This document shows, piece by piece, positions 12,066 through 26,593 of a DNA stretch of 64,000 nucleotides. The translations under genes were made by a program, and so were the position numbers. Position 1 is the stretch's first letter; each line of letters opens with the position of its first letter. The DNA lies in contig LT984855.1 of NCBI GenBank assembly GCA_900258555.1, positions 670,036 to 734,035 of the forward strand, written 5' to 3'. Below the pieces are notes generated by a model. The model ran no database searches. It was not told the DNA's origin and saw nothing but the letters and a program-made list of their open reading frames with translations. The stretch is from an uncultured Desulfobacterium sp. Lineage in GTDB: Bacteria > Desulfobacterota > DSM-4660 > Desulfatiglandales > Desulfatiglandaceae.

Positions 12066-12560
12066 CTACTCACCGGAGACGGATTGGCACGGGGCAGGAG
12101 GTAATTCAGGATCGCCAATGCCCGCCTTTTTTTTGACCCTGATGATTTCAGGACGGTATTTTCCGCTTTTTCTGGCTCTTTTGTCCATCAGCTTTACGAC
12201 GGCCATGGCCCCAAAGAAAAAGAAAAAACCGAAAAACGCGGAATATGAGGATGGATTGCCCTGAAAATTTTCAGCCATACGCTCCCCGATAAGCGCCCCG
12301 ACGATCATGATGATAACCGGGAACACATAGAGAAAAAAAGACAGCTTAAAAAGCTTGCTGCTTTCGAAATAGACCACCACCCAATCCCCCAGCCCGGCTT
12401 TTACCGTGTTAACCGCCTCCACTTCCATTATCCTCTTACCGCCCCCGCCGCTCTGGCAGGTATTTTTTTCCGCTCAGGACTCGCAGGCGGTCATCTGCCT
12501 TGTTTTCACCATGGCGGTGGCTTCAAAGACTTTTATAACAACGCCTTCTTCAGTGGCCAC
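12066..12560 (-). CDS. rseC: RseC/MucC family protein, candidate selenoprotein with in-frame TGA (Sec29)
   Basis: Starting at GTG 12560 the frame reads MATEEGVVIKVFEATAMVKT, then R-Q-M-T-A-C-E-S-[TGA]-A-E-K-N-T-C, then GGGGKRIMEVEAVN. Two membrane helices follow (about residues 65-85 and 95-115) with a basic tail, 164 residues in all. This is the complete Desulfobacterota-type RseC. TGA (12474-12476) sits exactly at the second Cys of the family's C-x2-C-x5-C motif. A 6-bp stem with a 5-nt loop follows 13 nt after the TGA. A Sec formate dehydrogenase nearby shows that TGA decoding is available. The alternatives are a nonsense mutation (TGC to TGA) or a sequencing error. Annotation from ATG 12428 would lose the whole Cys domain. 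In E. coli RseC works with Rsx/Rnf, and rnfB lies directly upstream here. Confidence 0.75.
12444..12476 (-). promoter_or_regulatory. Candidate bacterial SECIS element after the rseC TGA codon
   Basis: After the TGA (12474-12476) come 13 nt, then CCUGCC-AGAGC-GGCGGG. This is six base pairs including one G-U pair, closing a 5-nt loop that contains G. The loop begins 20 nt after the UGA, inside the range known for bacterial SECIS hairpins. The geometry is nearly identical to that at the formate dehydrogenase Sec codon (12 nt spacer, 6 bp, 5 nt). Confidence 0.6.
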
Positions 12561-12624
12561 GACGATTTCCCAGTGAATTCTGTTTTTGTTGCCTTCAGCC
12601 TTAGGCCTTCAGTCTATCTACCTG

Positions 12625-12767
12625 GGAGGCTGTCCGAGAATAACAATTTTTTCCAAAATCGAGGCATGCCCGTAAAAATTACCGGAGGCATATGGTTGAT
12701 ATGTTGAGGATAATTTTTTCGGGCATAACAAAGAGTTTGGGGGAAAAGGCATTCTCGGACAGCCTCC
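12625..12767. mobile_element. 143-bp palindromic (MITE-like) element between rnfB-gltD and rseC
   Basis: GGAGGCTGTCCGAGAAT at 12625-12641 is the exact reverse complement of 12751-12767 (17 bp). Inside, ATGCCCGTAAAAATTA pairs with TAATTTTTTCGGGCAT with one mismatch, so the whole element folds into a long imperfect hairpin. The right end touches the last base of the rnfB-gltD stop codon. The ends look like insertion-sequence termini, but no transposase is present. Confidence 0.65.
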
Positions 12768-14815
12768 TAGTTACCCGTGTGGTCGGAATAGCAGATCAGG
12801 CCGCACCGCAGGCACCGTTGTGCTTCGGCCAAGGCCTGTTCCTCGTTGAATCCTTTTTCGATTTCTTTTGCCCTGACCGGAATATCATGGATATAGTTTA
12901 GCTGCATGATTTGCCTTGGCGCGGATTTCACCTGTTCCAGACTGACAACATTCTGGACCAAGGTCTTACCGGTGAGCACGTCTTTGGGCAGTTCAAGGTC
13001 CAGACCATAGAGAGCCCTGTGAATGGAGGCGGCCCCGCGGCGGCCAGCACCAATGGCCTGAACAGCGGCACTAAAGTCGGTGATCACATCGCCATCAGTC
13101 AGCAGTCCTTTTGCCCGGACATGTTCGGGGTTCCGGTAAGACGCCACAGCCCGCCATTGCAGTTGGTCTGCAGAAGGTTTAGACCCTTCACCGGTTTCAG
13201 GGGCTTCTCCTTCAGGTTGTTCCACTGAGAAAATGAGCTCCGGCAGGCGACCGGATTCCAGTATCAGGGTGTCAGCAGCAATCAGTGTTTCACCGTTGAC
13301 AATAACGTTCTTCAGATTATTGCCTTTTCCGGTAAGTCCAGTGATGGTGGCGGCGAAGACAATTGTTCCACCTTTTGACTGGATGTCTTTGATTTCTGCT
13401 TCATTTAACCGAGAGGCCTGGGCGTCACAGCCCAAGACCACTGTAATTTTTTCCGCACCAAGGGATTTGCAGGCATTGACCGCATCTGCCGACAGGGGAC
13501 CGCTTTCCGCAATGACCACGTTTTTGCCGATCTTGAGCCCGAATTTATTGTCCGTTCCGGTCCTTAAAAGATCAATAAGCAGAAATGTCCCCGGAACGGC
13601 CTCTTCAGGGGCCGCGTCCTTGATACGTTCTGTGCGGCTGTCCCATCCGCCTGCGGCCAGAAATACGGTTTCAAACCCATCTGCCAACAGGGAGGCAATG
13701 GTGAAATCCCTGCCAAGGGTCTGACTAAGGCGGGTTTCAACCCCCATTTCCATGATACCCTCAATATCCCAGTCCAGGATATCAGCGGGCAGCCGGTAGG
13801 CTGCTATGGCGGTGCGAAGCAGTCCTCCGAGTCTTTCAGTGGCCTCAAACACGGTGGGCGAATGGCCCAGGCGCGCCGTGAAAAACGCGGTGGACAGTCC
13901 TTCGACGCCGCCGCCGACTACCGCCACCCGGAGGCCGGTTTCCGGGGCCTTGAAGGGCAGCGCCCGGTCGTTATTTTTCATTTCATAATCCGCGACAAAA
14001 CGTTTTAAGAAATTTATGGCCACCGGTTCATCTACAAGCTGTCTGCGGCAGAGGGTTTCACAGGGCCTGGGGCAGATACGGCCGATGACCGTGGGGAAGG
14101 GGTTGCGCTCCTTGATGACCTGGACAGCCCGATGGTAATTCTTTTCCGCGATCTGATGAATGTATTCACTAATATTTATGCCTGCCGGGCATGCCCGCTG
14201 GCAGGGAGTGGTACAATCGTCTGTAGTGTATTCCTTTAGTATCCTTCGCGTGACCGAAGACAGTGTGATGATATGTTTGGGGCAGACCCTCTCGCAGGTG
14301 CCGCAGCCGGTGCATTTTTTTTCGTCCACCACCGGCAGGCCGTTTTCACCCATGATGATGGCGCCGAAGGGACAGGCCGCCGCGCAGGATCCCAGGCCGA
14401 GGCAGCCGATGTTGCAGGTCTTCATGCCGCCATAAATCATGGCCGCAGCCCGGCAGGTGCTAAGTCCGTCATAATAGTATTTCACCGCAGCGTCCTTTAC
14501 ACCATAAGTGCAGCCCGGCAGGGCGATGTCCGGTTCTTTGGCCTCGACTTTCATACCCATGATTTCCGCGATGGCCTGGGCCAGTTCCGGGCCACCGGCA
14601 ACGCAAGAGGCGGGTGATGATTTACCCTCTGCAATGGCCTCAGCATTCGCCCCGCAACCTGGATACCCACATCCGCCGCAGTTGGCTCCTGGCAGCAGTT
14701 CACTGATTTTTTCAATCAGTGGGTCCACATATACATAAAATACCTTCGAGGCCACGGCCAGGCCGACTCCGATGACCACGCCCATTCCTCCCATGATCAG
14801 AACAGCTTCAATCAT
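12767..14815 (-). CDS. RnfB fused to a GltD-like FAD oxidoreductase
   Basis: The protein has 682 residues. Residues 1-28 form a membrane helix. LPGANCGGCGYPGC (41-54) is the RnfB iron-sulfur motif, followed by two ferredoxin-type clusters (to about 190, KKCTGCGTCERVCP). From about 205 it becomes GltD-like, with CTTPCQRACPAGINISEYIH and GRICPRPCETLCRR, an FAD-binding VAVVGGGVEGLS with GGLLRTAIAAYRLP, and a C-terminal RCLRCG. The second Rossmann motif, usually GGGNTAMD, reads AESGPLSADA, so NAD(P)H binding there may be lost. A strong AGGAG precedes the ATG. The rnf operon at 21 kb lacks rnfB, so this is probably the complex's RnfB, linking it to a second flavin site. RseC lies downstream. Confidence 0.9.
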   Translation of the reverse strand: MIEAVLIMGGMGVVIGVGLAVASKVFYVYVDPLIEKISELLPGANCGGCGYPGCGANAEAIAEGKSSPASCVAGGPELAQAIAEIMGMKVEAKEPDIALPGCTYGVKDAAVKYYYDGLSTCRAAAMIYGGMKTCNIGCLGLGSCAAACPFGAIIMGENGLPVVDEKKCTGCGTCERVCPKHIITLSSVTRRILKEYTTDDCTTPCQRACPAGINISEYIHQIAEKNYHRAVQVIKERNPFPTVIGRICPRPCETLCRRQLVDEPVAINFLKRFVADYEMKNNDRALPFKAPETGLRVAVVGGGVEGLSTAFFTARLGHSPTVFEATERLGGLLRTAIAAYRLPADILDWDIEGIMEMGVETRLSQTLGRDFTIASLLADGFETVFLAAGGWDSRTERIKDAAPEEAVPGTFLLIDLLRTGTDNKFGLKIGKNVVIAESGPLSADAVNACKSLGAEKITVVLGCDAQASRLNEAEIKDIQSKGGTIVFAATITGLTGKGNNLKNVIVNGETLIAADTLILESGRLPELIFSVEQPEGEAPETGEGSKPSADQLQWRAVASYRNPEHVRAKGLLTDGDVITDFSAAVQAIGAGRRGAASIHRALYGLDLELPKDVLTGKTLVQNVVSLEQVKSAPRQIMQLNYIHDIPVRAKEIEKGFNEEQALAEAQRCLRCGLICYSDHTGN

Positions 14816-15314: not shown

Positions 15315-18080
15315 ATGGATAAAGAAAACACCATCGTCATCAATGGTAACCGTCTTAATTTCGTCCGGGGCGAGACGATCTTAGATGTCGCCATGAAAAA
15401 TAATATCGAAATCCCAACCCTCTGTCATCTCAAGGGCACGACCCCCACCGGTAAATGCGGTGTGTGCGTGGTGCAGGTTGCAGACAAAGACGAACTGGTC
15501 ACCGCCTGTAGCACCCAGGCAGAGGACGGTATGACCATTTTAACGGAGTCTTCTTCAGTCGTGACCTCCCGGAAGCAGACCATCCAAAAAATGCTGTCCA
15601 TAGGAAATCACAATTGCGCAGTGCGGGCCTCATCCAAGGAGAACTGGACCCAATATCAGCTCAAGGTCCATCAGGAGGACAACAGCCCCGAGCTTTGTCC
15701 GGCCTGGGGAGACTGCAGGCTTCAGGACCTGGCCTACCGCTATCAGGTTACAGGCGGCGGGTATGCCAATGTCAAGGCCCTTTATCCTATGGAAATGGCT
15801 AATCCGTTTATAATACGGGATTTTTCCCGCTGCATTCTCTGCGGCCGGTGCGTTAAGGCCTGTAATGAAGTGCAGGTCAACAATGCCATTGAGTTCGGCT
15901 ATGATGGGGAAAAGCAGAAGATCATCGCACGGGATGACAAACCGCTCAAGGATTCAGACTGCGTATTCTGTGGAGAATGCGTCCAGGCCTGCCCGGTGGG
16001 CGCGCTGGTGCCAAAGGACAGCCGGTTTGAAAGGCCATGGGAAATGCAAAAAGTCAGAAGCACTTGCAGTTACTGCGGAGTGGGCTGTCAGATCAATTTT
16101 CACGTTAAGGATAACCGCGTTATCAAGATTACCGGGCCCGATGATGCGCCGCCCAATTACGGCAGACTGTGCGTCAAGGGCCGGTTCGGGTTTGATTTCA
16201 TTCATTCAAAAGACCGCCTCACAACTCCGCTCATCAAGGAAAACGGAAAATTCCGGGATGCCTCCTGGGACGAGGCACTGGATTTAACGGCCCGGCGTCT
16301 GTCCGAGATCAAAAAGCAGCATGGCGCTGACAGCATCGGGGTGTTGACATCAGCCCGGGTCACTAACGAAGACAATTACGCGGCCATGAAATTCACCAGG
16401 GCCGTCTTGAAGACCAACAATATTGATCATTGCGCCCGTCTCTGACACAGCTCCACAGTGGCTGGGCTAGCCGCAGCATTCGGAAGCGGGGCGATGACAA
16501 ACACCATCGGCGATGTGGAAGACGCTGAAGTGATTCTGGTGACCGGTTCCAATACGACGGAAAACCATCCGGTGCTGTCGTCATTTATCAAACGGGCTGT
16601 TAAATTTAAAAACGCCAAGCTGATCGTGGTGGATCCACGCCGGATCAAGCTCACGGAATTTGCCCATCTGTGGCTCCGGCCCAAACTGGGCACGGATGTG
16701 GCCTGGCTCAACGGGCTGATGCACGTGATCATAGCGGAAGATCTTCATGACAAGGCTTTTATCGAAAACCGGACCACGGATTTTGAAAAGTTGAAGTCAA
16801 TGGTGGAAAAGTTCACGCCGGATTACGTGAAACAGATTACCGGCATTCCAGAGGCCCGGATTATCGAAGCTGCCCGTCTCTATGCCGGGGCCAGGGCAGG
16901 GGCCATTCTTTACTGCATGGGCATTACCCAGCACACAACGGGCACAGACAATGTAAAATCCCTGGCCAATCTGGCCATGCTCTGCGGAAATCTGGGCATT
17001 GCCGGCGGAGGCGTAAACCCGCTGCGGGGTCAGAACAACGTGCAGGGGGCATGCGACATGGGGGGCCTTCCCAATGTTTTTAGCGGTTACCGGCCCGTGA
17101 CTGATGCAACGGTCCGAAAAGAAATGGAAGGGGCCTGGGGCGTCAGCGATCTTCCGGAAAAGCCTGGCCTGACCGTAACCAAGATGGTTCCCATGGCCCA
17201 CACCGGCGAGATCAAGGCCTTGTACATCATTGGCGAAAATCCGATGGTGTCGGACGCGGACCTCAATCACGCGGAAAAGAGTCTTTCCCATCTGGATTTT
17301 CTCGTGGTTCAGGATATTTTCATGACTGAAACCGGTATGATGGCGGATGTGGTGTTGCCATCGGCCTGTTTTGCGGAAAAAGACGGCACATTTTCAAATA
17401 CCGAGCGAAGGGTCCAGCGGGTGCGAAAGGCCGTTGACGCCCCGAAAGACGCATGGAACGACTGGCGCATCACATCTGAAATCGCAAAACGCATGGGCTA
17501 CCCCATGAATTACAAAAGCAGTCAGGAAATCTTCGAGGAAATAGCCAGGCTCACCCCGTCCTATGCCGGCATCAGCTATGAACGCATTGAGCGGCAAGGC
17601 CTCTACTGGCCGTGTCCGACCCAGGACCACCCGGGAACCCCCATCCTGCATACCCAGGAGTTTACCCGCGGCAAGGGGATGTTTCACGCCATTGATTATA
17701 TTCCACCGGCTGAAAAGACAGATGACGAATATCCGCTCTATCTGACCACCGGTCGGGTGTTGTATCATTACCATACCGGCACCATGACCCGCCGTACTGA
17801 GGGCCTAAACGAGCGGGCGCCGGAATCTTTTGTGGAGATTTCCGCCGAAGACGCGAAACGATTCGGAGTTGAAGATGAATCCATGATTACAGTAGCGTCC
17901 CGTCGGGGGGAAATCAACGTGCGGGCGAAAGTTTCGAAGATGGTAGAGGAGGGAACTGTATTTATCCCCTTCCATTATGCTGAAGCCGCAGCGAACAAAC
18001 TGACACATGCGGCGCTGGATCCGGTTTCCAATATTCCTGAATATAAAGTATGCGCCATTAGGCTTTCCCGGGCTGCTTAA
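15315..18080 (+). CDS. fdhA: Selenocysteine-containing formate dehydrogenase catalytic subunit
   Basis: The gene reads through TGA at 16443-16445 (Sec377) and encodes 921 residues. The context NIDHCARL-U-HSSTVAGLAA is the classic formate dehydrogenase selenocysteine site. Order of domains: [2Fe-2S] ferredoxin (1-80, TLCHLKG...GKCGVC), His/Cys-ligated cluster region (80-125), two 4Fe-4S motifs (CILCGRCVKACNEVQ and CVFCGECVQACPVG, about 170-230), CSYCGVGCQ for the cluster of the molybdopterin domain, then the bis-MGD domains. Formate is oxidised to CO2, or CO2 reduced. The NuoG-like N-terminus implies a soluble enzyme that passes electrons to a flavoprotein partner. None is adjacent except the divergent RnfB-GltD gene. 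Confidence 0.96.
16443..16474 (+). promoter_or_regulatory. Selenocysteine codon and SECIS hairpin of fdhA
   Basis: TGA at 16443-16445 is followed after 12 nt by GUGGCU-GGGCU-AGCCGC, a 6-bp stem with a 5-nt G-containing loop. The loop starts 19 nt after the UGA, which matches bacterial SECIS requirements for SelB binding. Confidence 0.8.
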
Positions 18081-21508: not shown

Positions 21509-22792
21509 ATGATTAAAAGATCGTTTATCGGACTGACTGCACCGAAGCTCAAGTGTGATATGGTTGAGCCGGATCCAAAAGATCCGGAAGCCATCCCCAT
21601 ACCACCCAGAATGATTCTCCTGCTGAATGAACCGTTGGACAGCATAAGGGAATCCCTTATCAAGCAAGGTGACAGGGTCCAAAAGGGGGAACGGATTTTC
21701 CTGTACAAAGACAGTCAGAGCTATGTCACGTCTCCGGTTTCCGGCGCCATAACAGCGATTGCTCCTATTACAGGAAATTATGGAGTAGATGCAACATATC
21801 TTGTCCTGGAGACAAACACGAAGCAGGATGTTGAGCAGAGCTTTGCCGAATTGGCCGCAACTCCGAATATTGAAAATGCAGACCGCTATTTGAGGGGGAT
21901 TCCAGGAGATCCTCCCCTCAAACAGCTTGCAGATCCTGAAAACCGCTTTAACAGGATCGTGATAACAGGTGTTGATGATGACCTGATGTGCACCACACGT
22001 CAGTATGTCCTGGCCAGATTCGCGGATAAGATAGACAGGGCAGTGGCGCTTCTCAAACAGATAACCGGAATTAATGATATATCAATTGCAATGACCGAAA
22101 CAATGGCAAAATTACCTGTATTCAATGGCATGAACCTGGTTAGAGTTGCATCTGATTACATCAGCTCCCTGCCTCCCATGATCATGGCAAAACACCTCGG
22201 CATCCCATTTGTTCCTGGCAAAGATCTTGATGTGTGCTTCATCCCGGTTGAGGCAGCGATGTCTCTTGTAAGGGCCTATGAAGAAAAGCAGTCAGTCTAT
22301 GACAAGGTCATCACCATCATAGACAAAACCGGTAAAAGGACACGGGTGACGGCAACTATCGGCACGCCCATACACAGGATTTTTACCCGGATAGGTGTTG
22401 AAACCGCTGAACAGGATAGGATTATTATTGGAGGCCCCTTAAGAGGGATCGCCGCCTACACCCTCTACCATCCGGTTATGCCGGATATGGACACTCTGAT
22501 AGTTCAGGCGAGCGGTGAAAGCCCCATGGCCTCTGACTACCCATGCATCAACTGCGGGAAATGTGTCAAGATCTGTCCGTCCAAGGTGCCGGTCAATCTG
22601 CTGGTGCGCTATCTGGAAGCCGGTCTTTATCAGGAGGCTGCCGACAGTTGTGATCTGCTCTCATGTATTGACTGCGGACTCTGCAGCTATGTATGCACTG
22701 CAAAGATTCCAATCTTCCAGTATATCCGGCTTGGAAAGCATGAGCTTATGAAAATGGAATCAGAGATTCAAACGGAGGCTCAAAATGTCTAA
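21509..22792 (+). CDS. rnfC: Rnf complex subunit RnfC
   Basis: This 427-residue peripheral subunit is the cytoplasmic NADH/FMN and Fe-S module of the ion-translocating ferredoxin:NAD+ oxidoreductase. An N-terminal barrel-sandwich region covers about 20-110 (IKQGDRVQKGERIF, TSPVSGAI). A flavin/NADH domain follows, then two 4Fe-4S motifs near the C-terminus (CINCGKCVKICPSKVP, CIDCGLCSYVC). It starts 86 bp after the cytochrome gene and overlaps rnfD by 8 bp. Confidence 0.93.
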   Translation: MIKRSFIGLTAPKLKCDMVEPDPKDPEAIPIPPRMILLLNEPLDSIRESLIKQGDRVQKGERIFLYKDSQSYVTSPVSGAITAIAPITGNYGVDATYLVLETNTKQDVEQSFAELAATPNIENADRYLRGIPGDPPLKQLADPENRFNRIVITGVDDDLMCTTRQYVLARFADKIDRAVALLKQITGINDISIAMTETMAKLPVFNGMNLVRVASDYISSLPPMIMAKHLGIPFVPGKDLDVCFIPVEAAMSLVRAYEEKQSVYDKVITIIDKTGKRTRVTATIGTPIHRIFTRIGVETAEQDRIIIGGPLRGIAAYTLYHPVMPDMDTLIVQASGESPMASDYPCINCGKCVKICPSKVPVNLLVRYLEAGLYQEAADSCDLLSCIDCGLCSYVCTAKIPIFQYIRLGKHELMKMESEIQTEAQNV

Positions 22793-23759
22793 ACAGAACA
22801 AATTTACAGTATCTCACGCCCCGTTCTGGCATGATGGCGACAGTATCAAGGTCATGAATCTTAATATCATGGCGGCAGCCCTTCCTGCCACACTGTTTGG
22901 CATTTTCCAATTCGGCACGGCAGCCCTGGGGGTAATCTGTCTATCCATCGCAAGCGCCATGGCCTGGGAGGCACTGTTTAACCTGGCATCAAAGCGTCCC
23001 ATCAATATTCATGATTATAATGCGGCAGTCATCGGCATGATGTTCGGCATGATGGCGCCCGCTACCATACCTTGGTGGGCGGTCATTACAGGTACATTCA
23101 TATCTGTAATTGTCGGACAACAGATATTTGGCGGCATCGGCGGCAACCCTTTTAACCCGGCGGTCATCGGTATCTCCATACTGATTCTCTCATGGAAGAA
23201 CATTTTTGATTTTGATGCAGCACTTCTTAACTACCGGTTTGATTTTACCTCACTTGCCCCCCTTGCCGCGCTTAAGCACCAGGGAACTGAAGTTGTGGAA
23301 TTATTCCCGATTGCCTCCCTGGCAATGGGCAATCAGTTGGGCTCAATCGGTTCAGTATTCGGCGTTGGTATTATCATAGGCGGCCTATATCTGATCATCA
23401 GGGGATATATCCGATGGGAAATTTCATTAGCATATATCCTTGGCATTATTATTACTGCATGGATATTCAACATCACCGACCCTTCAAAATATGCAAACCC
23501 GATATTTCACATATTTACAGGCTATACGTTGCTCGGCGCATTTTTTCTTGCCAATGAATCCTCATCATCGCCGGTCAATCTTATACCAATGTTCATATAT
23601 GGAACTATAGGGGGATTCCTGACAATTCTTATCAGGAATATCGGGAGCTACCCTGACGGCACATTATATGCCATCTTATTTATAAACCTGTTAAATCCCC
23701 TTATTGACAAAATCAGGCCAAAGGCTTTTGGGAAAGGGTGTGAAAAATGCGTGAAATGA
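22785..23759 (+). CDS. rnfD: Rnf complex subunit RnfD
   Basis: This 324-residue integral membrane protein with about nine to ten helices corresponds to RnfD/NqrB. Recognisable parts are GQQIFGGIGGNPFNPAVIG and the C-terminal GSYPDGTLYAILFINLLNP. It should carry covalently bound FMN and take part in ion pumping. The region where I would look for the flavin-attachment Thr reads NQLGSIGSVFG, and I could not identify the site with confidence. It overlaps rnfC by 8 bp and rnfG by 13 bp. Confidence 0.93.
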   Translation: MSKQNKFTVSHAPFWHDGDSIKVMNLNIMAAALPATLFGIFQFGTAALGVICLSIASAMAWEALFNLASKRPINIHDYNAAVIGMMFGMMAPATIPWWAVITGTFISVIVGQQIFGGIGGNPFNPAVIGISILILSWKNIFDFDAALLNYRFDFTSLAPLAALKHQGTEVVELFPIASLAMGNQLGSIGSVFGVGIIIGGLYLIIRGYIRWEISLAYILGIIITAWIFNITDPSKYANPIFHIFTGYTLLGAFFLANESSSSPVNLIPMFIYGTIGGFLTILIRNIGSYPDGTLYAILFINLLNPLIDKIRPKAFGKGCEKCVK

Positions 23760-24340
23760 TAAACATGGTTGTTGTTCTGACCATACTAAGCGCCTTTTCC
23801 GGAGGTCTGCTGGCTGCTGTCAGAACAGGAACAAAGGACAGAATCGAACAGCAGGTACTCAAATTTCAGAAGGCGCCTGCAATAAAACAAATTTTAAGTG
23901 ATGTCTCCAATGATCCGCTACAGGATCGTTTTAAAATGATGGATAACCAACAGGAATTGACTTTTTTTGTCGGCAAGCATGATGGCAAGCCCGATGCAGT
24001 CATCTTTGAAACGAAAGGAAAAGGGTTCGGCGGAGATATCGGAGTAATGGTCGGCGTCAACATCGAAACTGATAAAATTATTGGTGTGGCGGTCACAACC
24101 CACAGTGAAACACCCGGGCTTGGCTCCAGGGCCAAGGATGATCCCAAATTTGTCTCTCAGTTTGCCGGTATGGCCATGGATAAGAACTTTGCCACTAAAA
24201 AGGATGGGGGAGATATTGACGCCATGTCCGGCGCCACGGTTACATCCAAAGGTGTATGTATTGCTGCAAAACAGGCGCAGGATATATATACAAGACTGAA
24301 ACCTGAAATTCAGAAACAGATTGCACAAATGGCAAATTAG
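23747..24340 (+). CDS. rnfG: Rnf complex subunit RnfG
   Basis: This 197-residue protein has one N-terminal helix and an FMN-binding domain facing the periplasm. DAMSGATVTSKGV near residue 165 is the flavinylation motif, with FMN attached to the Thr of SGAT by ApbE. The apbE gene is the last gene of the same operon. It overlaps rnfD by 13 bp; the next gene follows after 11 bp. Confidence 0.94.
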   Translation: MREMINMVVVLTILSAFSGGLLAAVRTGTKDRIEQQVLKFQKAPAIKQILSDVSNDPLQDRFKMMDNQQELTFFVGKHDGKPDAVIFETKGKGFGGDIGVMVGVNIETDKIIGVAVTTHSETPGLGSRAKDDPKFVSQFAGMAMDKNFATKKDGGDIDAMSGATVTSKGVCIAAKQAQDIYTRLKPEIQKQIAQMAN

Positions 24341-24351
24341 GAGATTAACTT

Positions 24352-24945
24352 ATGGCGCAATCCATATTAAAAGAGTTTACAAAGGGACTCTGGGAGCAAG
24401 TACCGCCGTTTCGTCTTGTTCTGGGTCTCTGTCCCATTTTGGCTGTATCAAAGAATATTGAGAACGCAATTGGTATGGGTGTGGCATGTACTTTTGTATT
24501 TGCCTTTTCCAATCTTCTTGTATCAATGATGAGAAATATTATCCCATCAAAAGTGAGGATTGCCGCTTATATCATCATAATAGCCACCTTCGTTACAGTT
24601 GTTGAGCTGGTCATGCAGGCATATACTTATCCCCTTTTTCTTAAACTCGGCATATTCATCCCGCTGATTGTTGTAAACTGTATCGCCCTTGGACGGGCTG
24701 AGGCATTTGCATCCAAAAATCCTCCTCTTGCCTCAGTTGCAGACGGTCTTGGAATGGGAATAGGTTATACAATTTCCCTGATTGTGTTGGGTGCCTTGAG
24801 AGAATCTCTTGGTAATGGCACACTCATGGGACATCAGGTGTTCGGACCTGACTTTCTGCCATTTAAGTTCATGCTTGAAGCGCCTGGGGCTTTTGTGTGC
24901 CTTGGACTGGTTTTGTGTATTATGAACCTTTTCGGTAAAAAGTAA
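24352..24945 (+). CDS. rnfE: Rnf complex subunit RnfE
   Basis: This 197-residue integral membrane subunit with about six helices is paralogous to RnfA. Typical segments are GLCPILAVSKNIENAIGMG and PLIVVNCIALGRAEAFASKN. With RnfA it forms the membrane core with an intramembrane iron-sulfur centre. The conserved Cys residues (NCIALG and GLCP) are present. Shine-Dalgarno AGGAG is 9 bp upstream of the ATG. Confidence 0.94.
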   Translation: MAQSILKEFTKGLWEQVPPFRLVLGLCPILAVSKNIENAIGMGVACTFVFAFSNLLVSMMRNIIPSKVRIAAYIIIIATFVTVVELVMQAYTYPLFLKLGIFIPLIVVNCIALGRAEAFASKNPPLASVADGLGMGIGYTISLIVLGALRESLGNGTLMGHQVFGPDFLPFKFMLEAPGAFVCLGLVLCIMNLFGKK

Positions 24946-24959
24946 AAAGGAGAGAGCAA

Positions 24960-25535
24960 ATGGGTGACTATATTGTTCTTACCGTAAGCTGTATTCTTAT
25001 CAACAATATCCTTCTTGCACAGTTTCTCGGCAACTGCCCTTTTCTTGGGACATCAAAACGGATGGACACGGCAGTCGGCATGGCAATGGCGGTTGTATTT
25101 GTTATTGTGCTGGCAGGTGTTATCACATGGCTGACCGAGATGTATCTCCTGAAACCTTTTAATATTGAGTATCTTAGAACTCTCTCGTTTATCCTCATTG
25201 TTGCTTCGTTAGTTCAGTTTGTGGAGATGTTTCTTAAAAAGAGTATCCCCGCGCTCTACACAGGACTTGGTATTTTTCTGCCTCTGATAACCACAAACTG
25301 TGCTGTCCTTGGTGTATGTTTAATCAATATTAAAGAGGAATACTCATTTATTGAAACGCTAGTATCGTCTTTCACTTATTCCGTTGGATATGGCCTTGCC
25401 CTGATACTGTTTGCAGGGATAAGAGAGAGGATTATCCTTGCAAGGGTGCTAAAACCTCTTCAGGACACTTCCATCGGCCTTGTTACCGCAGGCATGATTG
25501 CAATCTGCTTTTTTGCATTCATAGGTATGGTGTAA
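24960..25535 (+). CDS. rnfA: Rnf complex subunit RnfA
   Basis: This 191-residue, six-helix membrane protein shows the RnfA signatures NNILLAQFLGNCPFLGTSK and PLITTNCAVLGVCLIN, whose Cys residues ligate the intramembrane cluster shared with RnfE. A strong AGGAGAG precedes the ATG. In related operons rnfB follows rnfA; here the next gene, only 2 bp away, is apbE. Confidence 0.95.
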   Translation: MGDYIVLTVSCILINNILLAQFLGNCPFLGTSKRMDTAVGMAMAVVFVIVLAGVITWLTEMYLLKPFNIEYLRTLSFILIVASLVQFVEMFLKKSIPALYTGLGIFLPLITTNCAVLGVCLINIKEEYSFIETLVSSFTYSVGYGLALILFAGIRERIILARVLKPLQDTSIGLVTAGMIAICFFAFIGMV

Positions 25536-25537
25536 TA

Positions 25538-26593
25538 TTGCTCAAATGTCCTGAATTATTAATTCCAACATCTCTCTATTTATTAATCGTATTACTTTTA
25601 TCACCCTTCCCTCCCTGCCCTGTAAATGCTGCTGATAGCCCATCCAATTCAGCCATTGAGCCGTTTACAGGCAATACCATGGGAACCACCTATCACATCA
25701 AGGTGGTCACGCAGAACAATGATGACAAAAAGCTGTTGAGTACTTTAATAGAGGAAAAGTTAAAGGATGTAAATCAGAGTATGTCTGTCTATGTACCGGA
25801 CAGCGAAATATCACTTTTCAACAACGCCAAAAAAGGAAAAGCAATACAAATATCCTTTGAATTTTATTCTGTCATGGTCACTTCACAGAAGCTTTATCGT
25901 ATTACAGGAGGCGCCTGGGACGGGACGGTGAAGCCATTGGTTGACCTATGGGGTTTTGGCACCAAAAAAGAGATCACAACCCCGCCATCTTCTGACGTTA
26001 TAAGGGCGCTACTTGAAAACACAGGATTTGATCAGATCACTATTCAAAACCAGACCCTTCAAAAACACAATTCAGCAATTACCCTCGACCTTGGTTCAAT
26101 AGCCAAAGGTTTCGGCGTTGACGCCATTGGACAGCTTTTAAAAGACCAGGGCTATATCAATTTCCTTGTTGAAATAGGAGGGGAGGTGCTGGCATCAGGA
26201 GAGAAAACGCCGGGAAAGCCCTGGATAGTCGGCATTAATAAGCCTGATAAATGGGACAATTCCAATGTGGCTTACCTTTCATTTCCACTCAGGGACAAAG
26301 CACTTGCAACCAGTGGGGACTACAAATCTTTTAGTATGATTGAAGGGGAGGCATACTCCCATATTATTAATCCTGCTACCGGATATCCTGTAGACAATGG
26401 TGTTGTGAGCGCCTCTGTGATATCAGACAACTGCACCTTTGCAGACGGACTTGCCACAGCACTGATGGTCATGGGGCAGGAAAAAGGCATCAAGCTGGTT
26501 AACAGCCTTGAAAATACCGAGTGTTTGATTGTTGTAAGAGATAAGGAGGGGGCATTAAAAGATTACAGATCCAAAAACTTTCCCCTCCCATGA
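25538..26593 (+). CDS. apbE: FAD:protein FMN transferase (ApbE)
   Basis: This 351-residue enzyme attaches FMN to Thr residues of RnfG and RnfD using FAD. An N-terminal hydrophobic signal segment (about 8-30) indicates export to the periplasmic side, possibly as a membrane-tethered protein. Motifs are MGTTYHIKV, DLGSIAKGFGVDAI, EIGGEVLASG, ATSGDYKSF and HIINPATGYP. It appears to begin with TTG at 25538, 2 bp after the rnfA stop, with no good ribosome-binding site, so translation is probably coupled. It is convergent with nuoN, 9 bp away. Confidence 0.93.
   Translation: MLKCPELLIPTSLYLLIVLLLSPFPPCPVNAADSPSNSAIEPFTGNTMGTTYHIKVVTQNNDDKKLLSTLIEEKLKDVNQSMSVYVPDSEISLFNNAKKGKAIQISFEFYSVMVTSQKLYRITGGAWDGTVKPLVDLWGFGTKKEITTPPSSDVIRALLENTGFDQITIQNQTLQKHNSAITLDLGSIAKGFGVDAIGQLLKDQGYINFLVEIGGEVLASGEKTPGKPWIVGINKPDKWDNSNVAYLSFPLRDKALATSGDYKSFSMIEGEAYSHIINPATGYPVDNGVVSASVISDNCTFADGLATALMVMGQEKGIKLVNSLENTECLIVVRDKEGALKDYRSKNFPLP

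Follow-up and report, generated by a model that had tools for sequence, protein, structure and literature searches.

A probable selenocysteine-containing RseC encoded beside rnfB in an uncultured Desulfobacterium

The window analysed here, a 64,000-nucleotide stretch of contig LT984855.1 from an uncultured Desulfobacterium sp., carries an rseC gene that is open only when an in-frame TGA codon is read through. With a probability of about 0.85, this gene encodes a selenocysteine (Sec) form of RseC. The gene and its relatives are best read as a recurrent selenoprotein family not described before: in RseC, a small membrane protein that works with the Rnf complex, Sec takes the place of one probable iron-sulfur (Fe-S) ligand. 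The gene, its codon, the recurrence of that codon, the hairpins, the decoding machinery and the neighbouring genes were all read from sequence. Recoding of the rseC UGA is nearly certain, and its decoding mainly as Sec is very probable. RseC does not appear among the 119 prokaryotic selenoprotein families or subfamilies that a 2026 review lists (PMC13188914), and it was not found in the text of the deep-Sep paper. The original prediction knew of no described Sec-containing RseC; in agreement with it, no link between RseC and selenoproteins in this sense was found in the literature searched, GenBank annotation lying outside that search.

The rseC reading frame and its TGA codon

The rseC frame was followed by translation from GTG 12560 to 12066 on the reverse strand, and the TGA at 12474-12476 was its sole interruption, as originally predicted. 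Around this codon the read-through translation is ...MTACESUAEKNTCQSGGGG.... The read-through protein scored 107.8 bits against the Pfam RseC_MucC profile (PF04246) over profile positions 1-130 (gathering cut-off 24.4), while the portion 3' of the TGA scored 72.2 bits by itself. Since the read-through score is the higher of the two, the part before the TGA is also RseC, which bears out the earlier claim that both parts match the family in one frame. The claim that the TGA stands exactly at the second motif cysteine (Cys) likewise held, as the codon aligns with the invariant Cys29 column. The motif numbering of 26, 29 and 35 is that of Escherichia coli RseC.

The window gene was the sole RseC found in its genome (G000) by PF04246 search. 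TGA also serves as an ordinary stop in this genome and terminates 9 of the 29 genes checked in the window, so genome-wide reading of TGA as an amino acid was rejected. An open reading frame (ORF) of 120 amino acids that starts at ATG 12428 lies 3' of the rseC TGA. An ordinary gene caller would begin rseC at this ATG and drop the cysteine motif, and the annotation is corrected accordingly.

In an AlphaFold2 model, the protein combines a beta domain with two long helices at residues 67-99 and 103-132 (block predicted local distance difference test, pLDDT, 89-98). Two transmembrane helices are predicted after the N-terminal domain, as expected of the RseC/MucC family. A PDB sequence search with the window RseC gave no match. 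Foldseek matches resembling the oligonucleotide/oligosaccharide-binding fold were weak (E 0.03 and worse) and were not used.

TGA-containing RseC in related genomes

Relatives of RseC were collected by PF04246 searches that read through stops, covering the order of the window, the class of genome G380 and a sample of the phylum. In the class-level search the matches listed numbered 150, with about 100 genomes of mid-range score outside the stop inspection, and the following counts apply among the matches listed. At least eight further full-length RseC genes with a single TGA inside the domain were found (Table 1). In all nine genes (9/9) the TGA coincided exactly with a motif cysteine: five genes have it at Cys2, three at Cys1 and one at Cys3. 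The original prediction had proposed looking for homologues with TGA at the codon used in the window, and L048, L049, L148 and L151 were found to have it. No TAA or TAG was found inside the domain of any full-length RseC, and stops occurred otherwise only in two fragmentary matches of borderline significance (G301 and G806). No second RseC was found in any of the nine genomes. A second in-frame TGA in L050, L051 and L150 was not taken as Sec, as it stands at the protein end and was read as a normal stop. In the phylum sample of 395 genomes the window gene was the sole TGA-containing RseC, which marks the trait as scattered and rare.

The nine TGA genes were compared with 81 distinct cysteine homologues that carry the motif. 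A maximum-likelihood tree of 94 rows required eight label changes over all groups, and at least six were forced by well-supported branches when cysteine forms were split from all others. This suggests about seven separate Cys-to-Sec events among cysteine forms, by which related lineages would have made the change on their own at Cys1, Cys2 or Cys3. Within one genus, L020 (CKHCSARGTC) and L051 (CSHCSARGTU) differ in a single such change, at Cys3.

The recurrence bears on two explanations in which the codon is not recoded. The TGA could be a nonsense mutation in a decaying rseC, or in one that now yields a truncated membrane protein from ATG 12428 without the cysteine motif. The 120-amino-acid ORF after the TGA fits such a product, and TGC or TGT is a single change away from TGA. 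This explanation is nevertheless very improbable, as a second species, whose protein is 82% identical, shares the TGA, and the ratio of nonsynonymous to synonymous substitution rates (dN/dS) between the window and this same-genus gene is 0.25 over the 135 codons that follow the TGA and 0.35 over the 27 codons that precede it, the latter value resting on few changes. The accumulation of mutations upstream of the TGA that the original prediction had named as part of a refuting condition was not seen, that region being conserved. A nonsense mutation is further opposed by the confinement of all nine TGAs, spread over about seven separate lineages, to motif cysteines, by the lack of any other stop within the domain, and by the position of the window gene as the sole RseC of a genome with an Rnf cluster. 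Sequencing or assembly error, with TGC read as TGA, deserves hardly any credence. The same TGA is present in the independently assembled same-genus genome (L048/L105), and hairpin-forming bases adjoin the window TGA which are lacking in the nearest cysteine homologues.

The window RseC was grouped in the tree with the Desulfobacterales-type proteins L106-L109 (66-69% identical, all with cysteine) and apart from the RseC of its own family, to which it is about 25-35% identical. As the protein is nearer to Desulfobacterales than to own-family RseC, this grouping suggests horizontal transfer of rseC, perhaps together with rnfB.

Table 1. Features of the window and TGA-containing rseC genes of related genomes (U, residue encoded by TGA).
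Feature	Location	Strand	Description
rseC, Sec form (putative)	window, 12066..12560	-	164 amino acids, GTG start, read through TGA; translation and PF04246
TGA, probably recoded	window, 12474..12476	-	residue 29, second Cys of CX2CX5C; translation; TGA at same codon in L048, L049, L148 and L151
CX2UX5C motif (Cys26, Sec29, Cys35)	window, 12456..12485	-	columns 26, 29 and 35 (C26, C29, C35) without variation among 75 aligned RseC when U is counted as C
Bacterial-SECIS-like hairpin	window, 12444..12460	-	CCUGCC-AGAGC-GGCGGG, 6 bp, G at loop position 2; fold
rnfB fused to GltD-like NAD(P)/FAD oxidoreductase	window, 12767..14815	-	directly upstream of rseC; NCBIfam and Pfam
fdhA	window, 15315..18080	+	canonical Sec TGA at 16443-16445; TIGR01591, 911 bits read through
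rnfC-rnfD-rnfG-rnfE-rnfA-apbE (presumed)	window, 21509..26593	+	remainder of the Rnf complex; ORFs and sequences
rseC with TGA	L048, same genus as window		CESUGEKNTC; Cys2 = TGA
rseC with TGA	L049, same order as window		CANUGSKGTC; Cys2 = TGA
rseC with TGA	L050, same order as window		UAHCQSHGSC; Cys1 = TGA
rseC with TGA	L051, same order as window		CSHCSARGTU; Cys3 = TGA
rseC with TGA	L148, class of G380		CDGUTAKGSC; Cys2 = TGA
rseC with TGA	L149, class of G380		UEACSARSGC; Cys1 = TGA
rseC with TGA	L150, class of G380		UESCTARSGC; Cys1 = TGA
rseC with TGA	L151, class of G380		CGGUSERDTC; Cys2 = TGA

Hairpins and decoding of the UGA

A hairpin resembling a bacterial selenocysteine insertion sequence (SECIS) begins 13 nt after the rseC TGA. 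The window also holds fdhA, which is a standard Sec gene and provides a positive control for the use of Sec at this locus; its hairpin (16458-16474, 7 bp) begins 12 nt after its own TGA. Both distances given in the original prediction were correct on folding. For comparison between genes, a hairpin was counted when it started 12-18 nt from the first codon base, had an uninterrupted stem of at least 6 bp and a loop of 3-9 nt, and carried a G in the first two loop positions. Such hairpins were found in eight of the nine Sec genes, where they begin 13-17 nt from the T of the TGA, in contrast to 13 of 243 motif-cysteine control positions in the cysteine homologues. The difference from the Cys2 controls gives a Fisher p of 3e-7, which is a guide only, as the rule was set post hoc and related genes are not independent. 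The bases beside the TGA run ACC TGC CAG AGC GGC GGG in both the window and L048; near cysteine genes have, for example, ACC TGT CAC AGC ACC GGG, which forms no such stem. An Rfam scan of the window returned nothing.

The genome of the window (5.4 Mb, 99% complete) contains two SelB proteins above the family cut-off and two tRNA-Sec-like genes with a UCA anticodon, together with a selD that has a TGA in frame. For selB, selC and selD this answers the check for sel genes named in the original prediction. A canonical tRNA-Sec with G73 is among them, as is the stronger of the two SelB matches. Among the genomes with TGA-containing RseC, selB was found in G000, G001, G057, G038, G668 and G469, tRNA-Sec in G000, G001, G057 and G038, and selD with an in-frame TGA in G000, G001, G017 and G038. 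One further tRNA-Sec-like match each in G000 and G038 was checked and rejected as tRNA-Ser. SelB matches of about 180-190 bits (G000, G017, G682, G668 and G795) were not counted as machinery; they look like EF-Tu, as judged from their length, partial match and neighbouring tRNA-like hits.

Several observations weigh against a Sec-containing RseC. The hairpin rule was drawn up with the folds already in view, and the hairpin of L148 is interrupted and satisfies only a looser criterion. The window hairpin alone is not significant, with 33% of synonymous-codon shuffles folding equally well, which also leaves the nonsense explanation some room; gene by gene these shuffles were weak throughout, with fractions from 0.02 to 0.43. 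For this reason the window hairpin is not proof by itself; what gives it weight is the comparison between genes. No SelB above the cut-off was found in G017, G682 and G795, which are metagenome-assembled genomes of 80, 83 and 60% completeness, and no SelD was found in G057. The few changes behind the dN/dS value before the TGA belong here as well. In the structural model the motif loop has a pLDDT of about 60, too uncertain to reveal a cluster site, and in E. coli RseC single Cys-to-Ser changes still work (PMC11729352), so that one position may tolerate change.

The last of these points lies in the decoding machinery of the window genome itself, where a tRNA with UCA anticodon and U73, an identity base of cysteinyl-tRNA synthetase, stands directly upstream of the second selB and could insert cysteine. 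The tRNA (92 nt, C1:1453893-1453980) and selB lie at C1:1451941-1453980 (L003, L011 and L156), and the pair adjoins an XdhC/CoxI-like gene and a SufS-like cysteine desulfurase. Pairs of this kind, selC* (tRNA-Cys) with selB*, have been described in Desulfobacterales and Syntrophobacterales (PMC7609411). The pair in the window genome shares their arrangement, anticodon and discriminator base, but its tRNA acceptor stem starts with G1:C72, whereas A1:U72 is described for Desulfobacterales (PMC7609411). PMC8762117 also cites a paper whose title names the recoding of Sec UGA by cysteine. By this route the rseC UGA would be recoded as cysteine, always or when selenium is short, and RseC would carry cysteine or a mixture of Sec and cysteine. 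The explanation is improbable, as the window genome also has the canonical G73 tRNA-Sec and the stronger SelB match. Since canonical tRNA-Sec was the only one found in G001, G057 and G038, whose assemblies are incomplete, Sec is the better general reading, while in G000 both are possible.

Fe-S ligation and the Rnf neighbourhood

E. coli RseC reportedly carries a [4Fe-4S] cluster that is sensitive to oxygen and is bound through Cys26, Cys29 and Cys35 (PMC11729352). The window protein resembles this member of the SoxR-reducing system (PF04246, NF008115) in its whole Pfam domain, residues 26, 29 and 35, two predicted membrane helices and linkage to Rnf/Rsx. It differs in that residue 29 is encoded by UGA, in its score of 24 bits on the NCBIfam equivalog (cut-off 184), which marks it as a distant member, and in following rnfB, whereas the E. 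coli gene lies in rpoE-rseABC. In Clostridium ljungdahlii, rseC is next to rnfC and is needed for autotrophy through Rnf expression (PMC9124969). This protein and the window protein are both Rnf-linked RseC of anaerobes, but the clostridial relatives examined are without the CX2CX5C spacing and Sec is not described in them. Sec proteins with probable Fe-S ligation are known in the RnfB-like "Fe-S cluster domain-containing protein" NF005503 (UxxC) and in CopZ-type 2Fe-2S proteins (PMC13188914). There too Sec is predicted from sequence to replace cysteine in a cluster-binding protein; these are other families, however, and RseC has Sec at each of three motif positions, depending on lineage. The same review would count these positions as separate subfamilies.

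The rnfB gene directly upstream of rseC encodes a fusion of 682 amino acids, an RnfB with a built-in flavin module, which was found beside rseC in many related genomes. The order of rnfB fusion followed by rseC was repeated at L107, L108, L112, L148, L149, L150 and L151, and at L050, L051 and L020 rnfB adjoins rseC on the opposite strand, rnfB being recognised by ORF sequence and not by profile at these loci. RseC is thus linked to Rnf by an adjacent rnfB in the window and at ten other loci. The remaining Rnf genes of the window bear presumed names, given by family from their ORF sequences, and the rnfB copy for this cluster is the one beside rseC. Between rnfB and rseC lies a 155-bp element (12619-12773) with 23-nt inverted ends that are 91% complementary. 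Its end sequence partly recurs in L092, from a same-genus genome, and in L122, and the element may be a small mobile repeat.

The proposed mechanism would begin at UGA codon 29, which SelB and tRNA-Sec would decode as Sec under the direction of the hairpin 13 nt downstream. The 164-residue product would consist of an N-terminal domain that bears CX2UX5C, a pair of membrane helices and a short C-terminal segment. On the model of E. coli RseC, its three chalcogen residues would hold an oxygen-sensitive [4Fe-4S] cluster, and it is somewhat favoured that Sec acts as one of the ligands. RseC may act beside the Rnf complex by relaying or sensing electrons or by helping to set up Rnf, and a selenolate on the cluster may change its potential, stability or recovery after oxidation. 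Alternatively, Sec could be a redox partner at the cluster instead of a chalcogen ligand. The original prediction had proposed a CxxU redox site in an Rnf/Rsx-associated protein; the Rnf association stood, while a probable Fe-S ligand is the better description of the site because of the cluster cysteines of E. coli (PMC11729352) and the occurrence of Sec at all three positions. A further and rather unlikely extension is a natural selenolate-ligated cluster with an interchangeable ligand, reached by Sec at any of the three ligands about seven times and tying Rnf to selenium, in which the UGA of the window genome could be read as Sec or cysteine by two SelB/tRNA systems in response to selenium.

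A Sec form of RseC would constitute a new selenoprotein family whose members are accessory to an energy-conserving complex in relatives of sulfate reducers. Sec appears to have been reached repeatedly at each of the three motif positions, unlike the usual fixed Sec position. Close pairs of cysteine and Sec forms, such as L020 and L051 from the same genus, would allow asking what selenium does for an Fe-S ligand, and the family would tie selenium supply to Rnf.
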